Positions 5,564-16,541 of a stretch of DNA of 23,109 nucleotides are shown in pieces. Within the stretch, counting starts at the first letter, position 1, and each line of letters begins with the position of its first letter. This DNA comes from a virus: the IMG/VR virus record IMGVR_UViG_3300042516_001035, positions 1-23,109 of that record; one strand, given 5' to 3'. The notes under the pieces are model-generated. The model had not been told where the DNA came from, searched no databases, and saw nothing but the letters and a program-made list of their open reading frames with translations. Made by a program: the position numbers and the translations under genes.

Positions 5564-7008
5564 TGAAAACGCCGATTCTAGGTTCCAGCTATGTGGCCCG
5601 CAGCGTCAACGCTGCGGACAACCGCATGGTCAACATGTACCCGGAAATCATCCCCGAGGGCGGCAAAACCTCCGCCTTTTTGTCGCGTTGCCCAGGTCTA
5701 AAGCGGTTGGTTGCGGCTGGCAGCGGGCCTATTCGCGGGCTGTGGGTGCTCAAAGAGTACCTGTATGCCGTCTCGGGCGACACCTTCTATCGGCTTAACG
5801 TCATCGGCAACTCGACCCGCTGGAAGATCAAGCCCCTAGGCACTGTGACCGGCACCGGCCCTGTGTCCATATCGGACAACGGCATTCAGATTTTCATCGC
5901 TTGCAATCCTGACGGATTCATCTACAACGCCGATACAGAAGTGTTTGCTCAAATCACCGACCCGGACTTCCCCGGCGCGGTGAAGGTGGGCTACCTTGAC
6001 GGTTACTTTGTGTTCAACGAACCCAATAGCTCGCGCGTGTGGGTGACATCGCTGCTGGACGGCCTGTCGGTTGACCCGCTTGATTTCGCCAGCGCAGAAG
6101 GCGATCCAGACGGTTTGGTGTCCCTAATCGTTGACCACCGCGAAGCGTGGCTGTTTGGCACCAACTCGATTGAAGTTTGGTACGACGCGGGGCTGCCGGA
6201 CTTCCCGCTGCAACGCATCCAAGGCGCGTTTAACGAGATTGGTTGCGCGGCGCCATACTCGGTTGCCAAACTTGACAACGGCCTGTTCTGGCTGGGTTCT
6301 GACGCCCGTGGCCGGGGTATCGTCTACCGGGCCAACGGCTACACCGGCACACGCATCTCGACCCACGCGGTTGAGTGGCAGATTCAGCAGTACGGCAACC
6401 TGTCGGATGCCATCGGATACACCTATCAGCAAGACGGCCACGCCTTCTATGTGCTGATCTTTCCGAGCGCCCAAACCACTTGGGTCTACGATGTATCAAC
6501 CCAGGCTTGGCATGAGCGGGCGGGCTGGTCTAACGGCAACTTTGTGCGCCATCGGTCCAACTGCCAAGCGGTCTACGACGACCAAGTTGTCGTCGGCGAT
6601 TTTGAGAACGGCAACATCTACGCTTTTGATCTGAACGAGTACGCCGACAACGGCGATATTCAAAAGTGGCTGCGTAGCTGGCGCGCGTTGCCGCCCAACA
6701 CAAACACCCTCAAGCGAACCGCGCAGCACAGCCTGCAAGTCGATTGCGAATCGGGTGTGGGCACCAACACGGGCCAAGGCAGCGACCCTCAGATGATGCT
6801 GCGCTGGTCGGACGACGGCGGTCATACGTGGTCCAACGAACATTGGGTTTCCGTGGGCAAGATCGGCGAATACTATCGCCGTGTCATTTGGCGGCGCCTG
6901 GGCATGACGCTCAAACTGCGTGACCGCGTGTATGAGATTTCGGGCACTGACCCTGTCAAGCTGGCTATCATGGACGCCGAATTGATCGTGTCGCCGACCA
7001 ATGCCTGA
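5563..7008 (+). CDS. Tail hub / packaged DNA stabilisation protein, P22 gp10-like
   Basis: This 481-aa protein resembles the Phage_stabilise family (PF11134). The opening (MKTPILGSSYVARSVNAADN, then MVNMYPEI) and the following LSRCPGLKRLV are characteristic. The body is a series of WD/propeller-like beta repeats with motifs such as RGLWVLKEYLYAVSGDTFYR, ISDNGIQIFIACNPDGFIYN and VGYLDGYFVFNEPNSSRVW. In P22, gp10 forms the hexameric hub below gp4 on which the needle and spikes assemble. The length agrees with P22 gp10 (472 aa). I chose ATG 5563, which shares bases with the previous stop (TGATG), over the in-frame TTG at 5560. The next gene's ATG lies 8 bases before this stop, so translation is coupled on both sides. 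Confidence 0.9.
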   Translation: MKTPILGSSYVARSVNAADNRMVNMYPEIIPEGGKTSAFLSRCPGLKRLVAAGSGPIRGLWVLKEYLYAVSGDTFYRLNVIGNSTRWKIKPLGTVTGTGPVSISDNGIQIFIACNPDGFIYNADTEVFAQITDPDFPGAVKVGYLDGYFVFNEPNSSRVWVTSLLDGLSVDPLDFASAEGDPDGLVSLIVDHREAWLFGTNSIEVWYDAGLPDFPLQRIQGAFNEIGCAAPYSVAKLDNGLFWLGSDARGRGIVYRANGYTGTRISTHAVEWQIQQYGNLSDAIGYTYQQDGHAFYVLIFPSAQTTWVYDVSTQAWHERAGWSNGNFVRHRSNCQAVYDDQVVVGDFENGNIYAFDLNEYADNGDIQKWLRSWRALPPNTNTLKRTAQHSLQVDCESGVGTNTGQGSDPQMMLRWSDDGGHTWSNEHWVSVGKIGEYYRRVIWRRLGMTLKLRDRVYEISGTDPVKLAIMDAELIVSPTNA

Positions 7009-8608
7009 ACAGCAAAATATCACAAACATACCGTCTAACCGTGTCGAGATCATTGATCCGCGCACGGGGATGGTGTCGCGTGAGTGGTATCGGTTCTTTC
7101 TGAACCTGTTCAACCTTGCAGGTAACGGCGGCAACCAGACCTCGCTAGACGACCTGCAAATCGGCCCCCCGCCCCAACCAGATTCTGGCAGCGGTGGCGG
7201 CGGCGGGGGTACGGGCACGGTAACCTCCGTGAATATGACGGTGCCCACCGGCTTGTCGGTGTCAGGCAACCCGGTTACTACTGCGGGCACATTGGCGGTC
7301 ACTTACACCGCCGGGTACGCTATCCCCACTACCGCAAGCCAAACAAACTGGGACACCGCTTATTCTGAGCGTTTGCAGTGGGACGGCGGGTCTACAAACT
7401 TGGTGGCTGCTACGGGCCGCACGTCTCTTGGTGCGACTACGGTAGGCAGCAATTTTTTAACGCTAACTAACCCTAGCGCGATCACGTTTGTCCAGATCAA
7501 CGCGGACAACACAATCACCACGATGGACGCGCCGACCTTTCGCACGGCTATCGGTGCGGGTACTGGCGCGGGGTCAGTAACTTCCGTTAGCGGCGCGGGC
7601 ACGGTCAGCGGACTGACGTTGACCGGCACAGTGACCACGTCGGGCAGTTTGACGTTGGGCGGCACCTTGGCCGTGACGCCGTCAGACTTTTCCAGCCAAG
7701 CAGCCAACACGTTTTTGGCAGCGCCAAACGGTTCTGCGGGCGTGCCGACGTTCCGGGCGATTGTTGCGGCAGATGTACCGACTCTGAACCAGAACACCAC
7801 AGGTTCTGCCGCCACGTTGACTACGGGCAGAACCATCTCTATTTCGGGTGATTTAACTTACACCAGCCCAAGTTTTGACGGTTCGGCCAACGTAACTGCG
7901 GCGGGCACGCTGGCCACTGTTAATGCTAACGTAGGCAGCTTTACAAACGCTTCAATTACTGTTAACGGTAAAGGTTTAATTACTGCGGCTTCTAGCGGTA
8001 CTGCGCCGGTAACCAGCGTCACGGGCACGTCGCCTGTTGTGTCCTCTGGCGGCGCAACCCCTGCGATCAGTCTTGACTCTGGCTACGGCGACACGCAGAA
8101 CCCCTACGCCAGCAAGACGGCAAACTACGTACTGGCCGCACCTAACGGTTCTGCGGGCGTGCCGACTTTCCGGGCCATCGTGGCTGCGGACATCCCGACC
8201 CTGAACCAAAACACCACCGGCACGGCCTCCAACGTGACAGGCACGGTGGCTATCGCTAACGGCGGTACGGGCCAGACAACGGCGGTGGCGGCGTTTGACG
8301 CGCTGTCCCCCGCGACTACCAAAGGCGATCTGATTGTCAGTAACGGCACAGACAACGTCCGGCTGGCTGTTGGCACTGATGCCTATGTGCTAACCGCCGA
8401 TTCGACGACCGCCTCTGGCATTAAATGGGCCGCTGCAAGCGGCGGCGGCAGCAACATCACGTCTTTGGGGATGTGGGAGAATAACGCCACTATCTCGGCC
8501 AACTATTCGATCACTGCGGGCAACAACGCAATGTCCGCCGGACGAATCACCGTCAACAGCGGCGTCACGGTTACGGTGCCGACAGGCTCGTCGTGGGTTG
8601 TCGTTTAA
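7001..8608 (+). CDS. Tail fibre-like protein with internal duplication
   Basis: This 535-aa, Thr/Ser/Ala/Gly-rich, low-charge protein has fibre architecture. Residues 1-45 (NRVEIIDPRTGMVSREWYRF) resemble the virion-attachment start of many podophage fibres. A polyglycine hinge follows at about 64-72. The shaft has repeats of the 'GTVTSV', 'GTL.V' and 'TTG.A' kind, including a 30-residue unit present twice (239-268 and 378-407). The last 47 residues (SITAGNNAMSAGRITVNSGV, then TVTVPTGSSWVVV) form a short beta cap that recurs in the gene at 13810. The gene overlaps the gp10-like gene by 8 bases and takes the place that the needle gene (26) holds in P22. It may therefore be a central fibre rather than a side fibre. 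Receptor contact is inference. Confidence 0.82.
   Translation: MPEQQNITNIPSNRVEIIDPRTGMVSREWYRFFLNLFNLAGNGGNQTSLDDLQIGPPPQPDSGSGGGGGGTGTVTSVNMTVPTGLSVSGNPVTTAGTLAVTYTAGYAIPTTASQTNWDTAYSERLQWDGGSTNLVAATGRTSLGATTVGSNFLTLTNPSAITFVQINADNTITTMDAPTFRTAIGAGTGAGSVTSVSGAGTVSGLTLTGTVTTSGSLTLGGTLAVTPSDFSSQAANTFLAAPNGSAGVPTFRAIVAADVPTLNQNTTGSAATLTTGRTISISGDLTYTSPSFDGSANVTAAGTLATVNANVGSFTNASITVNGKGLITAASSGTAPVTSVTGTSPVVSSGGATPAISLDSGYGDTQNPYASKTANYVLAAPNGSAGVPTFRAIVAADIPTLNQNTTGTASNVTGTVAIANGGTGQTTAVAAFDALSPATTKGDLIVSNGTDNVRLAVGTDAYVLTADSTTASGIKWAAASGGGSNITSLGMWENNATISANYSITAGNNAMSAGRITVNSGVTVTVPTGSSWVVV
7715..7804 (+). repeat. 90-bp intragenic direct repeat, copy A
   Basis: Thirty codons (residues 239-268 of the fibre protein) starting LAAPNGSAGVPTFRAIVAAD. 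They recur 417 bases downstream with a single amino-acid change (V to I). By eye the DNA copies differ at about 17 of 90 positions, nearly all synonymous. Confidence 0.9.
8132..8221 (+). repeat. 90-bp intragenic direct repeat, copy B
   Basis: Second copy of the 30-codon unit (residues 378-407), in the same reading frame as copy A. A looser third trace of the surrounding 'NTTG.A' pattern is present in the linker sequence between copies. Confidence 0.9.
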
Positions 8609-13809: not shown

Positions 13810-14487
13810 ATGGCTTCACTATCTCCGCCCCCAAAACTCCAGTTCTTCGGGACCGATGGGTTGCCTCTTGTCGGTGGAAAGCTGTACACCTACGCGGCGG
13901 GCACCACGACCCCGCTGGCTACGTACACCGACTACACCCAAGCCACCCAGAACACCAACCCGATTATCTTGGACTCGGCTGGGCAGGCCAATGTATGGTT
14001 GGCCGATACGACCACGTACAAGTACATTCTTAGAGACCCCGACGACGTGCTGCTGTTCACGGTCGATTACGTCTCGGTGCCGGTAACGTCTACTTCGTTT
14101 GCTTCGCCCCCGCCGATTGGCAGCAGCGTGCCCAACGAGGGCACCTTCACCAACTTGAACGTGGTGGACCTGATGACCTTGGAGGGCACGGGCGCTGCGA
14201 TCTTGAACGTCGGCACCACCGGCGAGCGCCCGGTAACGGCTGAAGAAGGCATGGTTCGCTACAATAGCACCACGACCAAGTTCGAGGGCTACAACGGCGC
14301 TTGGGGCGCTCTGGGCGGTGGCGCAACGGGGGGCGGCGCGGATACGGTGTTCTTTGAGAACAGCCTGATCGTGACGCAAAACTACACCATCCCCGCTGAC
14401 AAGAACGCTGGCACCTTCGGCCCCATCTCGGTTGCTGACAGCATCACCGTGACCGTGCCGTCCACCAGCGTCTGGTCAATCGTTTAA
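13810..14487 (+). CDS. Tail fibre/spike protein with head-binding-like N-domain
   Basis: This is a 225-aa protein. Residues 1-95 resemble the head-binding domain family of P22-type tailspikes and related fibres. Visible motifs are FFGTDGLPLVGGKLYTYAAG, TTTPLATYTDYTQATQNTNP and IILDSAGQANVWLADTTTYK, then YILRDPDDVLLFTVDYVSV. Residues 100-160 form a linker with a 'GTFTNLNVVDLMTLEG' strand, the 'ERPVTAEEGMVRYNSTTTKF' unit common in phage fibres, and EGYNGAWGALGG. The last 47 residues are a beta cap shared with the fibre at 7001. There is no enzymatic beta-helix domain, so this is much shorter than P22 gp9 (667 aa). It probably acts as a docking fibre to which the products of the next genes may bind. 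It follows the ejection genes exactly where P22 has its spike gene. Confidence 0.82.
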   Translation: MASLSPPPKLQFFGTDGLPLVGGKLYTYAAGTTTPLATYTDYTQATQNTNPIILDSAGQANVWLADTTTYKYILRDPDDVLLFTVDYVSVPVTSTSFASPPPIGSSVPNEGTFTNLNVVDLMTLEGTGAAILNVGTTGERPVTAEEGMVRYNSTTTKFEGYNGAWGALGGGATGGGADTVFFENSLIVTQNYTIPADKNAGTFGPISVADSITVTVPSTSVWSIV

Positions 14488-14496
14488 GGAACCGTC

Positions 14497-14985
14497 ATGG
14501 GCGTTAAATTAGTATCGGCAAGCGGCGGCTCGGTTGAGATCAACCCGCCAACTACCGCCAGCAACTTCACGGCCACGATGCCTGCGGCTACGGGCAACGT
14601 GGTGTTGGACTCGGCTACGCAATCGTTTACCAATAAATCTTTTGACTCTGCTCTTGTAGCCACTGTTTCCGGGACTGCGCCGATATACATGTGCCGCGCT
14701 TGGGTCAACTTTAACGGCACCGGCACCGTAGCGATTCGGGCCAGCGGAAACGTCAGCAGTATCACGGATAACGGTACGGGCAACTACACCGTAAACTTTA
14801 CGACTGCGCTGGCTGATGCGAACTATTCTGTCACTGCGCTGTCGTCTAGAGACGCAAGCACCTCAAACATAATTACGCAGATTGATGGAACGACTTTTAC
14901 AAGTTCCGCGTGCCGCATCCGAACTTTTGACTTGGCCAACGGCGGTCAAGATGCACTGAATGCTTGCGTTTCCATCTTCCGTTAA
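14497..14985 (+). CDS. Short fibre protein with 54-residue module (copy 1)
   Basis: This 162-aa protein has three parts. Residues 1-58 are an adaptor-like start (LVSASGGSVEINPPTTASNF, then TATMPAATGNVV), which I associate with phage fibre bases, and a heptad-poor linker (QSFTNKSFDSALVATVS). Residues 59-112 are a module beginning GTAPIYMCRAWVNFNGTGTV that recurs in the next two genes. Residues 113-162 are a variable beta region ending CVSIFR. The module's 'RAWVNFNGTGTV.IR.SGNVSSITD' pattern is common in phage fibre tips from aquatic samples. AAGGA precedes the ATG, and 9 bases separate it from the previous gene. A distal fibre segment or receptor-binding tip is inferred. Confidence 0.8.
   Translation: MGVKLVSASGGSVEINPPTTASNFTATMPAATGNVVLDSATQSFTNKSFDSALVATVSGTAPIYMCRAWVNFNGTGTVAIRASGNVSSITDNGTGNYTVNFTTALADANYSVTALSSRDASTSNIITQIDGTTFTSSACRIRTFDLANGGQDALNACVSIFR
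14671..14832 (+). repeat. 162-bp fibre module, copy 1
   Basis: Codons 59-112 of the gene at 14497, from GTAPIYMCRAW to DANYSV. The encoded 54 residues match copy 2 at 47 positions and copy 3 at 47 positions. Confidence 0.9.
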
Positions 14986-14994
14986 GGACTAACC

Positions 14995-15657
14995 ATGCCA
15001 ACAAAAATTGATGGAAACAACGGTGTCTTGCAGTCGTATGACTTCCAAGCTCTGACGACTGGTTTTTCGTACACCTTCGCCACTGGCACGACGACGCTGA
15101 TCGCGCAGCCCGCTGGTACGCTGGCGACGGGTACGATCACGATGCCTGGGTCGCCGGCTGACGGCATGGTCGTGACGTTTATGACCACGCAGCAGATTAC
15201 GGCGCTGACGATTGCTGGCAATACGGGTCAAAGCATCGGCGGCAGCCAAGTGTCTTTGATGGCGGCCAACAGCTCTTTGAGCTTCATCTACCGCCTGTCC
15301 AACACCACTTGGTACAACAACAGCGGACCTGCGCTGGGTAACGTAGGAACCGCACCCGTGTACGCGGCCCGCGCTTGGGTCAACTTTAACGGCACAAGCA
15401 CCGTCGCTATCCGCGCGTCGTCTAACGTGTCCAGCATTACGGATAACGGTACGGGCGACTACACGGTCAACTTTACGACTGCTTTGGCGGACGCAGACTA
15501 TTCTGTGGCGTTGGGCGGATCAAGAAACGGATCGTCAACCGACAATTTTGGCATGCAATTTTATTCACAGACAGCCAGCACTGTGCGAGTAAACACTTTT
15601 GCATCAACGGTGTCGCTCATAGACGCTACTTCGGCTACTGTTTCCATCTTCCGCTAA
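14995..15657 (+). CDS. Short fibre protein with 54-residue module (copy 2)
   Basis: This 220-aa protein is the longest of the three module-bearing fibres. Residues 1-117 are unlike those in the flanking copies: MPTKIDGNNGVLQSYDFQAL, strands with FATGTTTLIAQPAGTLATGT, and a domain in which 'GDPADGMVV.F' style strands (here GSPADGMVVTFMTTQQITAL) are followed by SLSFIYRLSNTTWYN. That pattern resembles a small jelly-roll domain of phage structural proteins. Residues 118-171 are the shared module (RAWVNFNGTSTVAIRASSNV), and the variable end closes with ATVSIFR. AAGGA precedes the ATG. Variable N-domains attached to one module suggest separate attachment or spacer parts on a common tip fold. Confidence 0.8.
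   Translation: MPTKIDGNNGVLQSYDFQALTTGFSYTFATGTTTLIAQPAGTLATGTITMPGSPADGMVVTFMTTQQITALTIAGNTGQSIGGSQVSLMAANSSLSFIYRLSNTTWYNNSGPALGNVGTAPVYAARAWVNFNGTSTVAIRASSNVSSITDNGTGDYTVNFTTALADADYSVALGGSRNGSSTDNFGMQFYSQTASTVRVNTFASTVSLIDATSATVSIFR
15346..15507 (+). repeat. 162-bp fibre module, copy 2
   Basis: Codons 118-171 of the gene at 14995, from GTAPVYAARAW to DADYSV. It has the same length as copies 1 and 3 with no gaps, and 43 of 54 residues agree with copy 3. Confidence 0.9.
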
Positions 15658-15669
15658 AAGGGACACATC

Positions 15670-16110
15670 ATGCCAATTACCATAGACGGAAGCGGCACCA
15701 TCACCGGCGCAGCAACGCTGGCGACGACGGTTGCCAGCCCCACGTTCACGACGCCCAACATCAACTCGGCGCAGTTTGCTACCGTGTCGGGCACCGCGCC
15801 CATCTACCCCTGCCGCGCATGGGTGAATTTCAACGGTACGGGTACGGTGGCGATTCGCGCCTCGGGAAACGTCAGTTCGATCACGGATAACGGCGCAGGC
15901 GACTACACAGTGAATTTGACAACTGCGATGCCCGACGCGAACTATTCTTTTTCGGCTCTGTGCGGCTATAACACGGGCGTAAGCGAAAGCACATTTGTTA
16001 CGATTAATACGACCGTTGTCCCCACAACTTCTGCATATCGATTTAAAACAAGAGACACTGCTGGCAACATTTTTGACAGCACCTATGTTTTGAGTTCTGT
16101 CTTCCGCTAA
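15670..16110 (+). CDS. Short fibre protein with 54-residue module (copy 3)
   Basis: This 146-aa protein has the shortest N-domain of the three (residues 1-40). It begins MPITIDGSGTITGAATLATT with the 'SPTFTTPNINSAQFATVSG' strand typical of fibre shafts. Residues 41-94 are the shared module (PCRAWVNFNGTGTVAIRASG), ending DANYSF. Residues 95-146 are a variable tip (SALCGYNTGVSESTFVTINT) ending SSVFR, like the SIFR ends of the other two. The start MP.(K/T)ID. is shared with the gene at 14995, suggesting a related assembly site. AAAGGG precedes the ATG. A receptor-contacting role is inferred from its position after the spike-like gene. Confidence 0.8.
   Translation: MPITIDGSGTITGAATLATTVASPTFTTPNINSAQFATVSGTAPIYPCRAWVNFNGTGTVAIRASGNVSSITDNGAGDYTVNLTTAMPDANYSFSALCGYNTGVSESTFVTINTTVVPTTSAYRFKTRDTAGNIFDSTYVLSSVFR
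15790..15951 (+). repeat. 162-bp fibre module, copy 3
   Basis: Codons 41-94 of the gene at 15670, from GTAPIYPCRAW to DANYSF. The three copies are in frame, ungapped and lie in separate consecutive genes. Confidence 0.9.
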
Positions 16111-16125
16111 CCCAAAGGACCAACC

Positions 16126-16314
16126 ATGAACCAACGCATCATCTATCCCACTGACGACGGCGGCGTGGCTGTCATCGTTCCCGCTGACGAATGCGGCCTG
16201 ACGATTGAACAGATCGCAGCCAAAGACGTGCCTGCGGGTAAACCCTACCAGATCGTGGATGTCGCCGACATCCCGTCTGACCGCACTTTCCGTGGAGCCT
16301 GGGAGTACGCATGA
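16126..16314 (+). CDS. Small phage protein, possibly fibre assembly-related
   Basis: This 62-aa acidic protein starts MNQRIIYPTDDGGVAVIVPA and continues CGLTIEQIAAKDVPAGKPYQ, ending DRTFRGAWEYA. To my memory this is a common small phage protein placed after fibre genes and before a partner like the next gene. Its 'P.D.TFR.AWE' ending also occurs in the middle of longer tail fibre assembly or tail-chaperone proteins. It overlaps the next gene by ATGA, so the two are made together and might represent one such protein divided in two. AAAGGA precedes the ATG. A chaperone role is inference. Confidence 0.72.
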   Translation: MNQRIIYPTDDGGVAVIVPADECGLTIEQIAAKDVPAGKPYQIVDVADIPSDRTFRGAWEYA

Positions 16315-16541
16315 TCGCCATCAACATCACCAAAGCCAAAGCAATTGTCCACGACAAGCGCCGCGCCGCTCGTGCGGCCGAGTTCGCGCCTCTGGACATC
16401 AAGGCCACCATCCCGTCTGAGGCCGCCGCCGCTGAAGCTGCACGCCAAGCCGTTCGCGACAAGTACGCCACCATGCAGACTGAGATCGACGCAGCACCTG
16501 GCGTGCCCGAACTCAAACTGATCGCCGATTCGCTGGTGTGA
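16311..16541 (+). CDS. Small helical phage protein, partner of the preceding gene
   Basis: This 76-aa protein is basic at the N-terminus (KAKAIVHDKRRAARAAEF) and helical after residue 40, with PSEAAAAEAARQAVRDKYAT and 'MQTEIDAAPGVPELKLIADSL'. The C-terminal pattern 'A...RQ.VRDKY..MQ..ID.A....LK.I' is typical of the C-terminal helical domain of phage tail fibre assembly and tail-assembly chaperone proteins. It is translated from an ATGA overlap with the 62-aa gene. The lysis genes begin one base after its stop. The pair could serve the three small fibres upstream. No enzymatic motif is seen. Confidence 0.72.
   Translation: MIAINITKAKAIVHDKRRAARAAEFAPLDIKATIPSEAAAAEAARQAVRDKYATMQTEIDAAPGVPELKLIADSLV

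Follow-up and report, generated by a model that had tools for sequence, protein, structure and literature searches.

Organization of the fibre cassette

The window, i.e., the whole stretch of DNA analyzed here, comprises 23,109 nucleotides (positions 1 to 23,109 of the IMG/VR virus record IMGVR_UViG_3300042516_001035). Its capsid protein matches the Pfam family P22_CoatProtein, and the source is a P22-type, short-tailed phage of freshwater type. The nearest named phage at the DNA level is the lake phage DSL-LC05 (78% identity over 12% of the window), in which the head module and the two small genes d1 and d2 described below are all absent.

The fibre cassette starts 3' of a gene on the plus strand (13810–14487) that encodes a fibre/tail protein of 225 aa. 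This gene was used as synteny anchor and retrieved more than 50 relatives with 58–91% amino acid identity over 225 aa, all of them metagenomic viral contigs, of which some are fragments, and which are not independent of each other. The anchor protein and the protein encoded at 7001–8608 have a C-terminal piece of ~44 residues in common (14353–14484 and 8474–8605, respectively), with the pattern.EN.....NY.I..........VTVTVP..S.W..V, which represents another reused fibre part. Downstream of the anchor, and on the same strand as all features that follow, lie three small fibre genes, each with an N-domain of its own followed by a head of the module type: slot 1 (14497–14985, 162 aa, N-domain starting with MGVKLVSASGGSVEINPP), slot 2 (14995–15657, 220 aa, MPTKIDGNNGVLQSYDFQ) and slot 3 (15670–16110, 146 aa, MPITIDGSGTITGA). 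Each of the three ORFs starts at an ATG of its own, preceded by a purine-rich stretch (AGGA/AGGG), and the slots were assigned by comparison of the N-domains. They are followed by d1 (16126–16314, 62 aa), a near-obligate companion of this head type for which the role of a beta-rich N-part in a fibre-assembly chaperone is predicted, and by d2 (16311–16541, 76 aa), which overlaps d1 in an ATGA, matches phrog_20196 and is the predicted helical C-part of that chaperone, being fused to d1 in other phages.

A preliminary description of this DNA had reported that the three genes are built on one 54-residue module, and the re-alignment reproduced its measurements. The modules at 14671–14832, 15346–15507 and 15790–15951 are each 162 bp long, in frame and ungapped, with 47 (copies 1 and 2), 47 (copies 1 and 3) and 43 (copies 2 and 3) identical residues of 54, and the ORFs end in SIFR, SIFR and SVFR, respectively. 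An automatic repeat search found the same family as a 198-nt direct repeat in three copies. At the DNA level, the window copies are identical at 124, 123 and 114 of 162 positions, which is close to the family background for random pairs of modules (0.758 ± 0.043); the longest uninterrupted matches span 27, 14 and 11 nt. The similarity of the modules is far beyond chance; a profile of the three copies retrieves hundreds of homologues, and all three genes match phrog_11355 "tail fiber protein" (E values of 1.1e-15, 4.1e-16 and 7.8e-17). The description of fibre genes with differing N-domains and diversified tips also agrees with our comparisons, in which the N-domains are slot-specific and the tips strongly diverged.

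A head domain with a conserved and a hypervariable half

The same description had separated a module from the tip behind it. The module holds, but what had been taken for a tip behind it belongs to the same domain of ~106 residues, of which it makes up the variable half. The homology between the copies does not end at residue 54 and reaches the C-terminus (60–63% over ~106 residues), so that module and tip form one domain, consisting of a conserved half-head (14671–14832 in copy 1, 15346–15507 in copy 2 and 15790–15951 in copy 3) and a hypervariable half-head (14833–14982, 15508–15654 and 15952–16107). The halves were delimited by alignment, in copy 1 also by entropy and the structural model, and the variable half of copy 3 has a near-identical counterpart in one relative (L092). 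Across 150 distinct members of the family, hardly any variation occurs in the first half; the second one is hypervariable but retains the skeleton T-T-S...R...T...D...V..FR with D96 invariant. Given that the loci of these 150 members had partly been fetched by module patterns, the entropy analysis was redone on 51 genes retrieved via the upstream neighbour. In this set, the entropy per column is 0.57 bits in the conserved versus 2.71 bits in the variable half, and none of the circular shifts of the half boundary outperformed the split at residue 54.

The AlphaFold monomer of the head is a single all-beta domain with eight predicted strands (pLDDT 84), four in the conserved half (residues 12–17, 23–28, 30–35 and 40–45) and four in the variable half (55–60, 69–72, 82–88 and 100–105). 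The best alignment to a solved structure was obtained with the C-terminal domain of the Pam1 tailspike (Z 7.5, 1.8 Å over 69 residues). The phiAB6 tailspike (Z 7.3) and the AP22 fibre gp53 (Z 6.0) were also aligned, all of them with Z below 8, as were H-type lectins (Z ~5; Helix agglutinin, HPA, Z 5.2), and these head-fold scores of 5.2–7.5 fall inside the usual background range. A Foldseek search of the head model against the PDB gave no match below an E value of 0.001. These alignments, the best of which are mostly to fibre and spike tips, are suggestive, and no proof, of phage tailspike/fibre tips and H-type lectins as the closest solved folds. Pfam searches of the window heads with E values up to 0.1 returned no lectin or gp53-like family, and no curated family was found in Pfam and NCBIfam together. 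Weak matches of the head profile to a scaffoldin and an interleukin receptor, obtained in a PDB sequence search, were judged to be due to chance.

The head domain is also found in other genomic settings. In the Acinetobacter phage HFM1, it is the C-terminus of a collar fibre encoded after P2-type baseplate genes. The Puniceispirillum phage HMO-2011 (L249) has four divergent module-type heads in adjacent small genes together with a d2-like gene, its head genes being annotated as putative tail fibre, tail-related or hypothetical.

Slot-specific N-domains and replacement of heads

Slots with their own N-domains fill the interval between the anchor gene and the genes at 16126 and 16311. Among the syntenic relatives, the number of modules ranges from 0 to 3, and phages that are 94–97% identical on the flanking gene can have unrelated tips; this variation, which the preliminary description had proposed to look for, is the opposite of three constant genes with uniform tips. 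The first 120 nt of the slot-1 N-domain are 66–90% identical in 19 relatives, 18 of which are without a module head in this slot, the only exception being L091. Instead, 15 have a head of an INILYE-ending family, one has another head (L111) and two encode a short protein only (L097 and L103). Because the module head is absent from slot 1 in 18 of the 19 relatives, the third copy in the window points to a head swap, and the "three in a row" is best read, from these alignments, as a replacement of the slot-1 head. The slot-2 N-domain is 79–84% identical to those of relatives in nucleotides, with the tip at 57–63%, the random level; likewise, the slot-3 N-domain is mostly 81–93% identical to slot 3 in relatives, with tips at the random level. 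Other relatives have S74-like fibres in the same place, or a series of two to three INILYE heads.

Several further arrangements were observed at this position. Four syntenic contigs (L137, L138, L125 and L118) have two or three consecutive genes with the head GTLDRVRITT.NGTDTFDAGSINILYE and are without d1/d2; this head, too, differs strongly between otherwise close phages (0.66–0.73 in nucleotides). Slot 1 of L086, L089, L114 and L136 encodes fibres that resemble, by motif only, those with the S74 self-cleaving intramolecular chaperone, and L089 has two such S74-like fibres, no module head and neither d1 nor d2. In L100 (7287–8348), an in-frame fusion joins the slot-2 and slot-3 genes to one ORF of 353 aa with a truncated slot-2 tip that resembles the slot-3 tip of L084; this may reflect either a true deletion or an error of assembly.

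Exchange of tips between phages

The distribution of tip identity among 151 genes is bimodal, with 12 pairs at 0.55 or above and almost all of the others between 0.1 and 0.5, and tip length ranges from 43 to 64 residues, a spread of up to 21. Tips that are 73–93% alike in nucleotides are found behind unrelated N-domains (L081/L096, L066/L109, L006/L061, L004/L019 and L023/L049). In such pairs, the DNA of the tip can be more similar than that of the module (0.84 versus 0.78 in L081/L096, 0.90 versus 0.80 in L004/L019 and 0.89 versus 0.81 in L030/L032), L066/L109 being an exception (0.73 versus 0.81), and the upstream and often also the downstream DNA of pairs that share a tip is unrelated (0.58–0.64, the level that the aligner gives for unrelated sequence). 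For window gene 3 and L092, the tip is 93% identical in nucleotides and the module 78%. At slot 3 of close relatives (L092, L101, L104 and L139), the N-domain is 86–100% and the module 81–100% identical until its last 22 nt, at which point identity falls to 68–90% and then to 13–45% (ungapped) in the tip. In L084/L096, the drop at slot 3 begins already in the middle of the module, and over all these slot-3 comparisons the module is mostly 81–100% and the tip 13–54% identical; in L101/L104 the slot-2 heads are identical and the tips of slots 1 and 3 unrelated. At the level of sequence, these cases show that complete heads, and also variable halves by themselves, have been exchanged between phages, slots and N-domains, with crossovers within the conserved half or at its border. 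From ~10 independent coincidences in ~11,000 tip pairs, a crude count on biased sampling, a tip pool in the order of a thousand types is suggested.

The preliminary description had explained the three copies by duplication followed by diversification, with recombination between them. A recent tandem duplication of one fibre gene in this genome would account for three adjacent copies that all end in -FR and have 43–47 of 54 residues identical. However, module DNA is no more alike within a locus (0.748, 55 pairs) than between loci (0.749, p = 0.47), and closer relatives of the modules exist in other phages: window module 1 is 0.841 identical to L006 versus 0.795 and 0.773 to its own neighbours. 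Where residues are shared, codons agree only slightly more often within loci (0.474) than between them (0.439), in both cases alike a little above the expectation from codon usage, which indicates that the modules are anciently related and kept similar by constraint at the protein level. Moreover, the N-domains are unrelated and slot-specific, and the slot-1 orthologues bear another head, in agreement with slot 1 having received its module by head replacement. We therefore consider duplication with subsequent tip divergence very improbable as the origin of this array, and found no sign of recombination between the window copies; their 70–77% DNA identity corresponds to the family background. 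In-genome gene conversion was rejected on the same comparison of within- and between-locus identity.

As to the tips themselves, fast point evolution under selection, with exchange being rare and unimportant, would be in line with most tip pairs being 10–50% identical and with the few shared tips found, but it fits poorly with the sharp junctions, with unrelated tips in phages so close on the flanking gene, and with the DNA of most shared tips being more alike than the adjoining modules, and it is considered very improbable. A diversity-generating retroelement, or other targeted mutation, would fit the confinement of the variation to one half of a fibre head. Yet no reverse transcriptase was identified in any of 18 records (the window and 17 relatives, which may be fragments; controls were detected), near-identical tips are found in unrelated backgrounds, and length differences of up to 21 residues are unlike the substitution-only variation of such elements, so we give this explanation almost no weight.

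Linkage of d1 and d2 to the head type

All 80 loci fetched with the module contain d1. In the syntenic set, d1 is present in 27 of 27 loci with the module versus 0 of 16 without it (Fisher p 4e-12), a test that considered the 43 syntenic loci extending 3.5 kb or more in the downstream direction (22 and 13 clusters, respectively, at 95% anchor identity), which are not phylogenetically independent. In the reverse search, starting from d1, a module gene was directly upstream in 76 of 78 loci; in the other two, the module gene was elsewhere in the locus, one d1 being at a contig edge. The d1 frame mostly starts a few nt past the module stop. Every isolate phage examined with a d1 match, in several phage groups, has a module gene just upstream, at times a very divergent one, and among bacterial contigs that extend far enough past the module, 25 of 29 had a match to d1 or d2. 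Some module phages had no detectable d1 (Rhizobium PPF1, I1_18 and Acinetobacter HFM1), and the syntenic phages with other heads (S74-like or INILYE) are without it. In 10 loci, d1 and d2 are fused. Judged by gene order, these searches show that a module-type head nearly always precedes d1, usually together with d2 or as a fused d1-d2. In one relative (L139, 6962–7192), d1 has an insertion of ~14 residues and is 0.77–0.79 identical in nucleotides to close relatives, with the adjoining d2 at 0.99; d1 itself may have been exchanged in this case.

The model of a fused d1-d2 homologue (L030) has a small beta domain followed by a long helical hairpin (pLDDT 96). Among profiles, the window d2 matches phrog_20196 only and the window d1 none; Pfam and NCBIfam searches of both gave no curated chaperone, and PDB sequence searches with d1 and with the d1-d2 profile gave no match. 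Members of the d2 family have weak matches to phrog_4912 "tail fiber assembly" (15 of 74, best E value 2.6e-4) and to the Phage_tail_APC profile PF16778 (12 of 74, best 1e-3). In other lineages, a curated Phage_tail_APC protein (a Rhodobacteraceae contig, E value of 1.2e-17) or DUF4376 (a Nitrincola phage) takes the place of d2. The Pam3 fibre chaperone gp25 has a beta sandwich at residues 1–55 and a helical part at 64–162 (PMC9608196), and V22 gp27, which carries the DUF4376 annotation, is a chaperone essential for active V22 fibres (PMC10579305). The likeness of the helical part of d1-d2 to Pam3 gp25 was discarded (Z 4.5, against 9.3 for the best-scoring entry, many unrelated hairpins matching better); since this match is not above background, the case for a chaperone rests on gene position, linkage and profiles. 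On these, d1 and d2 are probably the two parts of a split, Tfa-like fibre-assembly chaperone. As d1 is common to phages with wholly different tips, it would, if it binds the head, most likely do so on the conserved half.

The strict linkage would fit any direct partner of the head, including a virion part (tip cap, adaptor or linker) that stays on the fibre. Adhesins of the T-even gp38 type occupy the same gene position, which also speaks for such a role. On the other hand, the d2 family matches fibre-assembly profiles weakly but repeatedly, curated Phage_tail_APC and DUF4376 proteins take its position elsewhere, and the domain order of d1-d2 is that of Pam3 gp25, so that a virion part, although a serious contender, is the less likely role.

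Proposed mechanism

The explanation that best joins these observations, and which we regard as likely, is that the region is a host-recognition cassette in which swappable variable half-heads are carried on fixed N-domains and d1-d2 acts as a Tfa-like chaperone. In each small fibre protein, the slot-specific N-domain would attach it to the virion or to another fibre. The C-terminal beta-sandwich head of ~106 residues would provide a conserved scaffold with its first half and variable loops, likely in contact with the receptor, with its second, which may bind a surface polysaccharide or protein. The Tfa-like d1-d2 would assist folding and trimerisation of the head and, by recognising the conserved half, could serve any variable tip. 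Replacing the variable half could then provide a new receptor and leave folding, assembly and attachment intact. A more specific version, in which strands 1–4 are a fixed scaffold for the head-specific split chaperone d1-d2 and strands 5–8 (~43–64 residues) a cassette for receptor binding that is exchanged freely and comes from a very large common pool, is put forward tentatively, at somewhat less than an even chance; if true, the same helper folds and mounts any tip.

Comparison with known systems

By profile, the same head is found in the tail fibre families PHROG 11355, 27810 and 3484 (HMO-2011, Vibrio 1.009 and cyanophage 9515-10a), whose proteins are recorded as hypothetical, predicted or putative tail fibre. 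Homologues of d1 and d2 lie directly 3' of the head in cyanophage 9515-10a and in Vibrio phages, as in the window. Members of the head family occur in hundreds of contigs of aquatic phages as well as in contigs of various bacteria, and d1 as a marker of the head type would aid the annotation of many "hypothetical" fibre heads. With its naturally occurring variety of tips on a single scaffold, the family also lends itself to the study of phage binding targets.

The predicted C-terminal beta-sandwich tip resembles, with structural scores that are moderate and inside the background range, those of AP22 gp53, the phiAB6 and Pam1 tailspikes, R-pyocin fibres and H-type lectins. The window heads have no Pfam match to a lectin or gp53-like family, and the split into a conserved and a variable half is seen only in the window family. 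With chaperones of the Tfa type (Mu Tfa, Pam3 gp25 and Alteromonas V22 gp27; PF16778 and DUF4376), d1-d2 has in common a position directly after the fibre gene and, in the model of the fused homologue, a beta N-part followed by a helical C-part, but in the window it consists of two overlapping genes. In addition, the N-part d1 is conserved and specific to the head type, whereas the N-domain of Pam3 gp25 was called non-conserved (PMC9608196).

Variable fibre C-termini, the exchange of fibre genes and downstream chaperones are already established. In the literature searched, there was no description of a mid-domain junction or a half-domain exchange in this fibre-head family, nor of its slot-specific N-domains with exchangeable heads or of the head-specific split partner d1-d2. 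In the metaviromic islands at host-recognition genes, it is in the C-terminal regions of fibres that concurrent phages differ most from each other (Mizuno et al. 2014, PMC3909814). The present case differs from these in that the junction is inside one domain, so that the unit exchanged in phage host-range genes can be located to a single residue position within it, and in that this unit comes with its slots and a partner gene.
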